DNA of 64,000 nucleotides from Flectonema sp. DT1601. Taxonomy: Eukaryota > Euglenozoa > Diplonemea > Diplonemida > Diplonemidae. Shown piece after piece: positions 1 through 64,000 of this stretch. Under the pieces are notes generated by a model. It made no database searches, was not told the origin of the DNA, and saw nothing but the letters and a program-made list of their open reading frames with translations. The stretch lies in contig OZ025834.1 of assembly GCA_964019425.1 (NCBI GenBank), positions 123,501 through 187,500 of the forward strand, given 5' to 3'. Position numbers and translations under genes: made by a program. Position 1 is the stretch's first letter. Each line of letters starts with the position of its first letter.

Positions 1-739
1 AAGCCTGCAAGAGAAAAGTGAGCAAAAACACAGATTCAATTGCTGCTATTCTTGTCATCAGAACCTTTCCGTGACTTTTTAGTTTTTTTCATTTTAATTT
101 TTGAATCCCACCAAGAATATTCTCAGGATGAAAAAGGAATATAAGCGGTAAGACTTGAATCTCTCTCTTCAGACATTCAAAGTGTAGTTATACATATTCT
201 CTGAACAAGAGAAAGCAACATGTTTGCTTTCTCTTGTTTTTGTTTTCCTCGAATTCTATAAAAAAGCAATAGTATCTGAGTATTCTGTCGGCGTATTCTT
301 TTTTGTTCTTTTTTTTTTTTCCCCACCTCTGACCGTTGTTCCTCCGTAACTTTTCAGAAAAACGAGGACAAATAGATACAAGTGGTTAAGGCTCGCTATT
401 CGTGAGGTTCAGAGATCACTACGAAAAACAAGAATATCCATCTGCTGATTGGGAAAGGACGCTGATAATTGACAATTCACTTTTTTTCCTTTTTTAAAAG
501 TTGCAGTAGAAAAGTAATAATCGGACAAATAACTTTTTTTTTTTTTGAAGTTGGAGAACTGTTTTTTATCGCTGCTTAGTCACAAATTATTATGATATAA
601 ACAGGAAACCATTCACAACGTTCACATGGATAGGTACCAATCTGTAGATAGTTGAAGATAAAGAAGAGAGCATACACCAACCGGTGTAGTGTGAAGGTAG
701 TAATCGTAGAGTAAGAATACATAAAAGCAATCATTTTAT
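1..739. other. AT-rich spacer with a long hairpin and an acceptor-like site
   Basis: I see no gene here. On the minus strand, positions 22-1 read a pyrimidine-rich tract ending in TTGCAG. This looks like the splice acceptor of the next gene downstream, which would lie outside the window. A perfect 15-bp inverted repeat occupies 204-238. Short A and T runs are frequent. Confidence 0.5.
204..238. repeat. Perfect 15-bp inverted repeat, 5-nt loop
   Basis: Bases 204-218 pair with 224-238 around the loop CATGT, and a T run follows on the plus strand. It lies about 500 nt downstream (minus sense) of the ANTH gene stop. It could be an RNA hairpin in a 3' UTR or a processing signal; its function is unknown. 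Confidence 0.6.
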
Positions 740-2470
740 TTAACTGAACAATTCATCTAAAGTATTTTTCGGAGGTGCAGTAGAAGTTGCTTGCTGCTGC
801 TGTTGTTGCTGAGGTTGCTGTGAAGGCCAAATCTGTTTTTTGTTATTGTTGTGTATGGGGCAGAATGGGACAGCATAATTATTTTATTTCCATTTTCTTA
901 CTTTTTTTTACACGGTTTTGATTTGACTGAAAATAATAAAATCACATACATCGTCAACGGTAACTTTTTGCTTTTCAGGAGAGAATAACAGAAGAGAATC
1001 ACCCGTTTGCTGAGGCTGCTGTTGTTGTTGTAGCTGCTGTTGGTATTGCTGCTGTGGTTGCTGTTGGTATTGCTGCTGCTGTTGGTATTGCTGCTGCGGT
1101 TGCTGTTGTTGTTGTAGCTGCTGTTGGTATTGCTGCTGTGGTTGCTGTTGATAATTTTGAGCCGCTGGTTGAAATTGGAGACTAGCCTGTTGCTGCTGTT
1201 GCTGTTGCTGAACTGGTTGAAATTGAGCAGGCTGCTGAATAATTTGCTGAGGTGGAGGAACAGACACAGAATTCCTCTGCTGCATTCTACTCTGAGAAGG
1301 GGGAGAAGCTGGCAATGGCACTGAAAACAACGACTGCTGTTGTTGCTGCTGACTATGCACAGGTGAAGCAGGTGAAAACAATGACTGCTGTTGTTGCTGC
1401 TGACTATGCACAGGTGAAGCAGGTGAAAACAATGACTGCTGAGACGATGTCGTATCAGTGAACAACTGTTGTTGAACTACACCAGTTTGGCTAAAAGTCT
1501 GTTGCCGAAGATAAGTGCCTGTTGTGTCCTCTTCTTCTTCTAAGTCAGAAGTAATCGTAAGTTTCTCAATTGAGATATCAGCAATAGATTCATCTTCTAC
1601 TTCACCAGACAAGAATGACTCCACAAGTTTAATTGTATCCTCAGGAAGACTCTGTAGAGGTGGTGATGAATCACTCCCTATTGATTGAATGCTGGAGATT
1701 AATTCTGAAAGGTTCTCAAACAATCCTATGTATGTTCTGAAGTTGTTTAACGCACGGCTACGCTGCTCTTGAGAAAACATTTTCGACCTTTCCATAAGAG
1801 AAATAGTCCAATTAGTTAAAAAAGAATACAACACTTTACTGTCTTGTAATATTAGTTTCATCGCCTTACCCCAAAGTGGATCGATTTGCATGGCATTGAC
1901 TCCGCAGTCTTTGAACTCTATTAAGCTGCTAAGCTGTAGTGTCAATGCCTCAGCTATTTTAATCGCCGCATCATTGGATAGTGACTTGACACCTTTCGTA
2001 GATTTTGATGAAAAAACAGACTTCGGAATAGAACGAGAAGTAATCGATCGCTCTTCAAGATACCTCGCATAGCATGAAATAAATGTTGAGTGAGAACCAG
2101 AGTTTTTATCCCAGAGATCCTTGTATCCCGAAACATGAAATAATGATGTCTTTTTAGTGATTTCTTTCTTAACAGGTTCACCTCCTTCCTTCATTAAGAA
2201 ATGTAAAACAACCAACGCCTTTAAGACGACAACCCATTCGTGACTATGAACCCGTCCTTCCATTCCGGAAACAATATCGTGTGCCATGTTTTCATCGAAT
2301 GACGCAGATAGCAGTCTCTTTAAATGTTTTTCATTTGGAGGTTTCAATTTGTGGCTTGTCGTTTTCAAGATGGCTCTTTCTGTTTCATTCCCTTGAATGC
2401 GAGTTGCTGCAAGTCTTGCCTTGTCTTTAAAATAACCCCCAGTTCGCTTAGCTTCACTTGTCTGACTCAT
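740..2470 (-). CDS. ANTH-domain clathrin adaptor (AP180/CALM-like), two exons
   Basis: Predicted 537-aa endocytic adaptor. Exons are 2470-950 and 832-740, with a 117-nt intron (949-833) from GTATGT to an A-rich CAG. The exon join keeps frame and replaces the intronic read-through that ends near 908. Residues about 25-300 match the ANTH fold of AP180/CALM, which binds PI(4,5)P2 and clathrin at the plasma membrane; the segments ILKTTSHKLKPPNEKH and YKDLWD are family-like. The C-terminal 200 residues are polyQ/Q-rich with short hydrophobic motifs (SLF, LLLF, LDELF at the end) that could bind clathrin or adaptors. A 17-residue unit is repeated in tandem. The start is the first ATG after a plausible acceptor (TTTTCATCCAG, 15 nt upstream). 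I am sure of the family; its exact role is inferred. Confidence 0.88.
1331..1432 (-). repeat. 51-bp tandem repeat inside the ANTH gene
   Basis: Two nearly identical 51-bp units, with partial flanking copies, encode a 17-residue unit (QQSLFSPASPVHSQQQQ). The period is an exact multiple of three. Each unit carries one SLF motif, so the repeat multiplies a possible adaptor-binding motif. It is likely variable in length between strains. Confidence 0.85.
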
Positions 2471-61672: not shown

Positions 61673-64000
61673 TTATCCGATGATGTTCTGGGCCTCCTTC
61701 AAGGCAGCTTCACAGTCAGCAGGGTCCTCAGCGATGATAGTAACTTCAACCTTAGCATCACGCGGGTAGTCCTTGTTTCTGTCAGTTCTTGGTACGAAGA
61801 AGACACAACCGAATTCCTTTTCCATCTGGCTGCAGTTACCTCCTCCTAAAAGTCTTCCAATTCTGAAGATTGGAAGGTCAAAGGTAACCATCCTAGTAGC
61901 AACATCAGCCTGGATCTCTTCAATCTTTGCCTTAATAGTATCAACAGCTTCCTGAGATCCCATTAATTCAATAACATCGCTGTTGTTTCTGAAGTCGGCG
62001 ATTATTTCTTCAAGTCCGGCAGTCTTTTTGAATGGAGTCAAACGGGTCTTTGCTGGAACCTCGTCGTTCAATCTAACGGTCATGTACCTAACAAATGGAG
62101 ATCCAACCTTAAGTACTTCCTTGTTCATTCCCTTACCCTCAAGGAATTCCCTGATTTTGTTATTTTTATAAAGATCCGTGTGGTAATCACACAACGACAT
62201 AATCAGTAATGTAAATTCATACTTTAGCTCCTGTACAAGTGCCTTTCCTTCTTCCTTCTTGGCAGTGATGAGGATTTCTGACCTTGCTGTGGTTGTGTGA
62301 GTTTTAGTGTGTCCACTGTCTACGTCTGTAATTAGACTAAGACAATTAATACATACGTGGAGGTGATGCTCTGCAGCTGTTAGCGTTGTGCTTTCTTCTA
62401 AGCTGTTCAAGAAGGCAAACTCCTCCCTTGTTACGCTCATCATCAGCTGGGAATTGTTCTTCGAGACCTTCCATAACTGGTCTTCTTCTGAGAAGGAAGT
62501 CTCTCATCTTTGATGCAAATGGAAGCTTGATATCTTCCCTGATGTTTTCCTGTTTTTTGAAGTTATTTTCAGTTGTTGAGAAAAGTGACTTTACAAAGTG
62601 TGTCTAATTACACAAAACATACGGAAACAAGAGCATCGATAAGCTTCTTTGCCTCGATAGTGTTTGCCTTGGCTCCGAAGATCTTAACTTCCATTGGGGA
62701 GATGTCGAGGACAACCTTCGCCTTGTTTTCAATACTGCTGCATGTCTTACCTCCAGCTCCGATGACAATGTGGTGAGGGAAACCCTTCTTTAGTCCATAG
62801 TGGACTACCTGCATGTCTCCCAGGAATTCGTTGATAAATTCACACGCAACCTTTACCTTTTCTGGGTATCCAGTGACAGTGATTGAAGCAGCCTCAGGCA
62901 TGTTTCTAATAGTTCTGCACTCGTACTCGTCCTGCCATTTTCTCATCAAACGTCCAGTTAGAATAGAGCTGTGCTTCTTGTCATATGAGATCTTCTCAGT
63001 GGTTGACTCAGCTAAGAATTCCTTGATAAGCTCCATTGCCTTCTCAACGTTTGCTTCAATTCCGATGACCTCAATCTCACCAGAGTCCTTGTTGACGTTG
63101 AAGTCGCATGATGATTCGCTCTGGAATCTCTGAATTCTCTTACCACCTCCTCCAATAAATTCACCAGTAAGACTTGGCTCAATTGTGATCGTCTTCTTGA
63201 AACGGTTTTCCTTTGCGTCCTTCAGGATGGCCGCAATTGCTACGGAGCATTCCTTGTGTTCGGAACCTCTGATTTTGATTTCACCGAGGTTCTTGCGGAC
63301 GTCAATTAGGACTCCCCAATCTTGCTCGATTTGACCGATGACGGCACCACCTGCTCCAATCAAATCAAAAGTGTACTCAGCATCGTATTCCAAAATGGTA
63401 GTTGGAATTTGGTCCGCAAGAGCTTTCTCTTCAGCTTCGAAACCCTGCTTGACAACAACGAGGTCATCAGTCGCCTGTTTCATAGCAGCTACTTCAGGGC
63501 TTGAAGTCAAAGACTTTCTCTTCTCAACCAGCTCGTAAATTTCTCCTCTGAAGAAATCCTTGGATTCGTCCTCTGGTCTTTTGTCACCAGCTAATTGTCT
63601 AATTTGCTCTCTGAACTTGTCCTTCTTCTTGCTTTCTGCGTCTCTTTCTTCATCAGTTAGTGCTAAACCCTCTCTGTGCTTGTCAACATCCTTCTGGTGC
63701 TTAACCTTCTTCTTCTCGAGTTCCTTCATACGGTCAGAACACTTCATTGCTTCTTCAGCGAGCCCTTCCAATTCGGTGTTGGCCTTTGAAAGTGCCTCGT
63801 TGGCGTCACGGTAAGCAACAAACTTGTTCTTGGTGGTGGTTAAATCAGCCAACTGCTTACCCAAAGACTTGATGGTAGTGTCGTGACCTTTGGCGTTTGC
63901 GTCCTTCAACTTAGCTCTCAAATTGTCTCTGTTGGCAACGAGTTCCTTCATTGATTTAGCGGTGTTGACAGATTCAGTTCTTTCAACTTCTTTCTTGAGT
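61673..64000 (-). CDS. BFR1/vigilin-like multi-KH RNA-binding protein, 5' end outside window
   Basis: Partial, at least 703 aa. Exons are 64000-62623, 62549-62357, 62286-62223 and 62150-61673. Introns of 73, 70 and 72 nt start GTATGT, GTATGT and GTATGA. The 72-nt intron has no stop and is a multiple of three, so it is easily missed; removing it gives a continuous KH helix (ELKEFLEGKG). The N-terminal part seen is coiled coil (about 170 residues), then at least five KH-like modules. Their GxxG loops are GAGG, GGGG, a degenerate GRLM, GAGG and GGGN. Coiled coil plus KH modules matches yeast BFR1, a polysome- and mRNP-associated protein. The role is inferred. The frame is open to the window edge. 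Confidence 0.85.
62151..62222 (-). other. In-frame 72-nt intron in the BFR1-like gene
   Basis: It runs from GTATGA to CAAAATCAG, adds 24 codons without a stop if retained, and is AT-rich. Its translation (YEFTLLIMSLCDYHTDLYKN) interrupts a KH helix and looks unlike the flanking protein. Its retention would change the KH module rather than abolish the protein. Confidence 0.7.

Follow-up and report, generated by a model that had tools for sequence, protein, structure and literature searches.

A unidirectional gene array in the diplonemid Flectonema sp. DT1601 and genomic evidence for probable polycistronic transcription with spliced-leader trans-splicing

We analyzed a window of 64,000 nucleotides from the diplonemid Flectonema sp. 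DT1601, corresponding to positions 123501-187500 of contig OZ025834.1 (C55 in our numbering, in which C marks contigs and L marks loci read individually) in an assembly of 89.5 Mb and 92 contigs. The genes of this window form a unidirectional array on the minus strand. Its best explanation is very likely euglenozoan polycistronic transcription combined with spliced leader (SL) trans-splicing, because the genome is laid out in long strand blocks, carries tandem SL RNA arrays and contains leader-tagged genomic copies. An initial annotation made from the window sequence had offered the same reading, which these three lines of evidence now support.

Strand blocks in the window and across the assembly

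Both strands of 264 kb were scored with an order-4 coding model trained on 14 open reading frames of the window, with a threshold of 20 nats. The scored region includes 100 kb of flank on each side of the window (200 kb unseen by the model, with 5,000 bases given as N). All 66 segments above the threshold are on the minus strand, 15 of 15 in the window and 51 of 51 in the flank, and no plus-strand segment of at least 20 nats occurs in the 264 kb, even prior to overlap resolution. A looser first scan of the window returned ten plus-strand segments, every one nested within a stronger minus-strand segment. The open frames of the window that bear Pfam domains (ANTH, PB1-UBA, ankyrin, midasin-like AAA, PDZ/EF-hand, Kelch, methyltransferase, Wntless-like, TLC and KH) also lie on the minus strand. 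The claim that all 17 supported genes of the window share this strand is thus confirmed and extends well into the flanks. An Rfam scan of the window gave no matches.

Strand use on other contigs was assessed with markers from five protein searches (Kelch, kinase, helicase, kinesin and WD40; best candidates only scored), which yielded 444 markers on 83 of the 92 contigs after same-strand neighbors less than 6 kb apart were merged. Adjacent markers less than 50 kb apart are on the same strand in 102 of 103 cases, and this check, which the initial annotation had proposed, reveals long same-strand blocks. At all distances, 270 of 361 adjacent pairs agree, compared with at most 212 in 2,000 shuffles. 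Strand switches are divergent in 72 cases and convergent in 19. Among the 77 contigs with at least two markers, the strands of the first and last markers are minus and plus in 54, both minus in 12, both plus in 10, and plus and minus in one, such that 66 first markers and 64 last markers point outward. Exactly one switch is found in 43 of the 66 contigs with at least three markers. Of the 13 contigs with a terminal repeat (described below) at both ends, six have one switch (C1, C8, C14, C19, C55 and C64) and the others have 0 to 4.

The contig of the window is itself one of those with a strand change. Coding is on the minus strand up to 331.6 kb and on the plus strand at 430.3, 480 and 690 kb, with a weaker plus-strand segment from 406.4 kb and faint plus-strand segments (11-12 nats) at 355.7-356.8 kb. 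Within the switch interval is a stretch at 355-358 kb (L089) with 62.5% GC and a 982-amino-acid plus-strand frame that carries a Cauli_VI (Ribonuclease H1 N-terminal) domain. This stretch is probably a mobile element. A Pfam search with six frames from individually read loci left five of the six without a match.

Spliced leader RNA genes and leader copies

The initial annotation had also suggested looking for leader RNA genes arranged in tandem and bearing a GTA-type donor, and such genes are present. The sequence CAGTTTCTGTACTWTATTGGTA, which joins the end of the leader to the GTA donor, has 759 genome matches at up to two mismatches, whereas a reversed-pattern control has none. Of the 100 matches listed, nearly all belong to arrays on C16 or C20; neighboring matches there are mostly spaced by 610-624 bp, but some are separated by 1,695 bp or more. 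The SL exon is 39 nt long, AACCAACGATTCTAAAGCTACAGTTTCTGTACTTTATTG. In the part of a published leader table used for comparison, it has two mismatches (37 of 39 positions identical) to the row ‘Euglenozoa 14’ and nine to ‘Euglenozoa 1’. We take the ‘Euglenozoa 14’ row to be that of Diplonema. The similarity of the leader to this row, together with the best match of the PDZ/EF-hand protein of the window (below), agrees with a diplonemid source. Over 114 nt, with the first base omitted, the SL RNA folds more stably than any of 200 shuffled sequences (z of -3.59).

The C16 and C20 units scanned contain 5S rRNA; three loci gave four 5S matches, each of 98.7 bits. When one C16 unit is aligned with one C20 unit, the exon (39 of 39 positions) and the 5S rRNA (120 of 120) are identical, while the 75 nt past the exon match at 67 positions and the spacer at 214 of 282. 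Four further SL units, 411 bp apart, are found at the left end of the contig of the window (L081), where they adjoin the terminal repeat and read outward; a search for 5S in these four units gave no match.

In one unit of the C20 array (L031, about positions 665-1150), the SL exon is interrupted by an insert whose ends are similar and inverted. More insert-bearing units are suggested by several 1,695-bp spacings among the SL matches listed.

The leader end also occurs with a non-G base directly after it, at 81 dispersed places in the genome and at none in controls. We read 14 of these 81 loci (L067-L080). Thirteen have 37-39 nt of the leader and one has 22 nt, and the downstream sequence is not the SL intron. 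Nine of the 14 loci have a frame of more than 100 amino acids that begins at their first ATG, and eight of these nine frames are still open where the short locus stops. No such frame occurs in the four loci of one repeated family or in L080. In L067, the full leader lies 33 nt ahead of the ATG of a 306-amino-acid kinase frame. Partial leaders are repeated in L068, L071 and L072.

These leader copies without a donor would be best explained as reverse-copied, trans-spliced mRNAs. Leader-tagged genomic copies could provide a DNA-only means to recognize reverse-copied genes in Euglenozoa. Counting weakened the idea that the copies invariably share the orientation of the array around them: with the nearest marker at most 50 kb away, 22 copies are on the same strand and four on the opposite strand, and where a copy is bracketed by same-strand markers, ten agree and two do not.

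The four members of the repeated family (L069, L075, L078 and L079) share near-identical GC-rich sequence right after the leader. This family is perhaps a mobile element whose own RNA is trans-spliced.

Acceptor signals, cis-splicing and rival explanations

The initial annotation placed an acceptor signal before every start codon. We examined 42 likely gene starts, retained by rules from the 66 coding segments (24 were dropped), together with control ATGs that comprised 1,670 same-strand intergenic, 1,669 opposite-strand intergenic and 1,687 internal coding sites. All 42 starts have an AG within 60 nt upstream, as do 92.8%, 97.2% and 98.3% of these controls, respectively. Likewise, the longest upstream pyrimidine run has a mean length of 7.98 for starts and 8.53 for same-strand controls. 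Because controls give like values, AG distance and T-tract length are almost uninformative: the AG within about 60 nt of each ATG is real but is nearly as common before control ATGs, and a long T tract is not a specific sign of an acceptor.

A motif learned from the starts is more telling. It is T-rich, with A at -4 in 31 of 42 starts and C at -3 in 27 of 42, followed by AG, and the ATG lies a median of 28.5 nt beyond the acceptor. In leave-one-out tests, this T-rich...ACAG motif is enriched at the starts as a set, with areas under the receiver operating characteristic curve of 0.856, 0.871 and 0.926 against the three controls. Individually, 25 of the 42 starts score above the 90th percentile of same-strand controls and 16 above the 95th; for the window the former count is six of 13 starts, and one of the 13 was misplaced (40780 for 40675). 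Thus the enrichment of an acceptor motif stands, whereas its presence before every start codon goes beyond the data, since only these 25 starts (six of them within the window) pass the 90th percentile. The motif model picks the same sites as had been proposed at 54463 and 37144, although both score below that percentile. For a proposed start at 15452, the acceptor-like stretch and the ATG are in the sequence, but there is no coding segment above the threshold.

Conventional cis-introns are present alongside these signals, as the initial annotation had stated. One of them is in a PDZ/EF-hand gene at 38715..40675 (minus strand), recognized by homology to DIPPA_23929 of Diplonema papillatum. Its two exons are separated by a 65-nt intron, GTATGT...ACAG, at 38835..38899 on the minus strand, and removal of this GT-AG intron restores the alignment with the D. 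papillatum C-terminus across the junction. The joined exons encode 631 amino acids, with 52% identity over 594 amino acids to the D. papillatum protein. Among 8,000 candidates scored in a search with this protein, there are three relatives, namely DIPPA_23929 (52%) and two unnamed ENA proteins (51%), such that D. papillatum is the closest and only named one. The homology also indicates that the ATG at 40675 is the right start, with a candidate acceptor AG ending at 40700 behind a T tract (identified by eye); the automatic rule had taken an upstream in-frame ATG. In Kinetoplastea, cis-introns are nearly absent. The presence of a conventional, homology-confirmed cis-intron therefore disfavors a kinetoplastid assignment, and the argument made earlier on this point is upheld.

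Taken together, the data are best explained by the following model. The window would lie within a polycistronic unit that spans several hundred kilobases of a diplonemid chromosome. Transcription by RNA polymerase II most likely would begin in the divergent switch region of C55, at 331.6-406.4 kb, and run leftward through the window (123.5-187.5 kb) to the contig end. The primary RNA would be cut to single mRNAs by trans-splicing of the 39-nt leader, donated by a separate, tandem-encoded SL RNA and joined at the T-rich...ACAG acceptor ahead of each ATG, while GT-AG introns within genes would be removed in cis. We infer the start, direction and continuity of transcription, the leader on mature mRNAs and the trans-splicing of each window gene.

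Several observations weigh against this model. The evidence is genomic DNA throughout, AG distances and T tracts are no different from those of controls, and 17 of the 42 starts, including seven of the 13 in the window, fall below the 90th percentile of controls. The leader has no match in the window at up to three mismatches; trans-splicing predicts none, so this result lends no support. A search with the methyltransferase-domain protein of the window gave 28 matches, of which none is named as diplonemid. These are the protein itself, four EukProt transcriptome proteins at 30-31% identity and 23 weaker matches, some named as bacterial and one from the dinoflagellate Effrenium voratum. Finally, the GT-AG introns, together with GTATG-like donors that precede some acceptors (one case is near the giant AAA gene), might indicate that the acceptors serve cis-introns in the 5' untranslated regions of genes with their own promoters, with co-orientation as a by-product. 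Some individual genes may indeed carry such introns. As a general account, however, this explanation is very improbable, as it would require a noncoding first exon for most genes and would leave the block structure, the SL RNA arrays and the leader-tagged copies unexplained.

Unidirectional arrays and SL-tagged retrogenes have also been described in dinoflagellates, within the portion of that literature considered here, and a dinoflagellate-type arrangement with a dinoflagellate leader had been raised for the window. This alternative is highly improbable and finds no support: the DinoSL 21-mer has no exact match in the genome, in contrast to the 759 matches of the euglenozoan-type leader, and the only named relative of the PDZ/EF-hand protein among the candidates scored is from D. 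papillatum. A chance one-strand run in a genome of mixed gene order, for which 17 co-oriented genes alone give odds of about 1 in 65,000 prior to allowing for the choice of window, is refuted by the agreement of all 51 further flank segments and by the 270 of 361 same-strand marker pairs genome-wide, a count that no shuffle approached beyond 212.

Window genes, contig ends and known systems

The remaining genes of the window are all on the minus strand; for acceptors, we give the position at which the AG ends. An ANTH-domain gene (935..2470; PF07651, E 2.9e-28; coding model) begins with an ATG at 2470, and its best candidate acceptor, at 2486, is below the 90th percentile of controls. It is followed by a gene with a phosphatase-like N-terminal region (4872..8630; weak matches to PF22785 and PF00102; coding score 291; ATG 8630; acceptor 8680), a gene without a Pfam match (9771..11663; coding model; ATG 11663; acceptor 11675) and a PB1-UBA (NBR1-like) gene (12412..14001; PF00564 and PF24932; coding model; ATG 14001). 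An ankyrin-repeat gene (17201..22756; PF12796; coding score 379; ATG 22756; acceptor 22758) and another gene without a Pfam match (22943..23731; coding model; ATG 23731; acceptor 23742) precede the giant AAA gene (26570..37141; coding score 766; ATG 37141), which has dynein-related and midasin-lid domains (PF07728, E 5.8e-78, and PF17867). The candidate acceptor of the giant gene is the one at 37144, with the ATG two bases on and a branch-like CTAAC upstream.

Beyond the PDZ/EF-hand gene lies a Kelch gene (44431..45982; PF24681, E 4e-63; ATG 45982; acceptor 45995), whose downstream introns and low-end stop were placed by eye. The methyltransferase-domain gene (48349..50340; PF08242, E 5.5e-16; ATG 50340; acceptor 50358), a gene without a Pfam match (50552..51742; coding model; ATG 51742) and the first coding region of a Wntless-like gene (53446..54453; PF06664, E 7.4e-8; ATG 54453; candidate acceptor 54463) come next. 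The array continues with a TLC-domain open frame (55337..56179; PF03798, E 1.9e-11), a gene without a Pfam match (56590..60606; coding score 302; ATG 60606) and coding segments that reach the window end (61673..64000; segments 61676-62488 and 62626-63990), the left of which has a KH domain (PF00013).

Inside an apparent intron of the Kelch gene is a dispersed repeat of about 160 bp (44878..45037, no strand assigned) that resembles a short interspersed nuclear element, is flanked by poly(T) and poly(A), and has three further genome copies at 94-99% identity. In the Kelch protein search, residues 320-355 have many protein-level genome matches, a further sign of this repeat. A degenerate second copy is present in the window at 51934-52035 (76% over 105 bp).

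We also read the sequence at 32 left and 23 right contig ends. Left ends carry (TTTGCGGG)n in 22 of 32 cases and right ends carry (CCCGCAAA)n in 16 of 23, for a total of 38 of 55; the contig of the window has the repeat at both ends (L081 and L082), and L032 and L033 are further example ends. Polarity is uniform, in that the 3' terminus at each repeat-bearing end belongs to the C-rich strand, and the opposite polarity is seen in none of the 55. Of the ten left and seven right ends without the repeat, two of the right ones end inside SL arrays. Among 100 array interruption points listed of 214, 57 are within 50 kb of a left end, of which 56 are plus and one is minus (C30). The other 43 comprise 40 minus points and three internal plus points (C10 twice and C33), and the 23 minus points listed on contigs with a known end are within 45 kb of the right end.

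The telomere repeat (TTAGGG)4 was rejected as a candidate, with no genome matches, and a telomerase RNA-binding domain search gave a single genome match (E 2.5e-10), which marks a candidate telomerase gene at C7:904589-904969. The usual polarity of telomeres is the reverse of that seen at these contig ends; if the terminal arrays are telomeres, their polarity is therefore reversed. It is a tentative proposal, which we consider rather doubtful, that chromosomes of outward arrays are capped by a (TTTGCGGG)n telomere of reversed polarity with a C-rich (CCCGCAAA)n 3' end. If true, the terminal RNA produced by outward transcription would be C-rich, as would the repeat that telomerase must synthesize. 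The terminal (TTTGCGGG)n could instead be a plain subterminal satellite. In a literature search for the two 8-mers, the titles among the matches listed concern other subjects.

Leader-bearing gene copies in DNA resemble the SL-tagged retrogenes of dinoflagellates, so far as the accounts considered describe them, although the leader and the lineage, here euglenozoan, are different. Repeated leaders are a feature of SL-tagged copies in dinoflagellates, to which L068, L071 and L072 bear a likeness. Leishmania has TTAGGG telomeres and few introns, unlike the genome examined here, with its conventional cis-introns and absence of (TTAGGG)4. The layout is nonetheless like that of Leishmania major, in which, from the portions of the reports used here, arrays run outward from divergent switch regions, chromosome 1 has two opposite clusters around one divergent switch, and 56 telomere regions are 3' (transcribed toward the end) compared with 15 or 16 that are 5' (PMC2679053, PMC11708010). 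The outward orientation of most first and last markers matches this arrangement.

The closest known system is that of D. papillatum, for which the sections of the published account considered here (PMC10161547) describe unidirectional arrays of 5 to 120 genes, an SL on essentially all mRNAs, a 39-nt SL exon, tandem SL RNA units with 5S rRNA, and mostly GT-AG introns; both cis- and trans-splicing are known in diplonemids. The type of system is thus already known, because D. papillatum has arrays, an SL on its mRNAs and SL-5S-U2 units, and the two genomes have in common the unidirectional arrays, the length of the SL exon, the tandem SL RNA genes with 5S, and the GT-AG introns. According to the same sections, they differ in size (89.5 Mb here versus about 280 Mb) and in their SL units: D. 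papillatum alternates SL, 5S and U2, whereas the C16 and C20 units have 5S and no U2 match, and the four SL units on the contig of the window match neither (PMC10161547). The openly licensed literature searched, so far as its contents could be surveyed, yielded neither a chromosome-scale array map for a diplonemid nor leader-tagged copies, and the portion of the D. papillatum account considered has no such map of array direction (PMC10161547). The present analysis thus provides a near-chromosome-scale layout of a diplonemid genome for polycistronic transcription, and lends support to the view that diplonemids and kinetoplastids share outward arrays and SL trans-splicing, with cis-introns kept.

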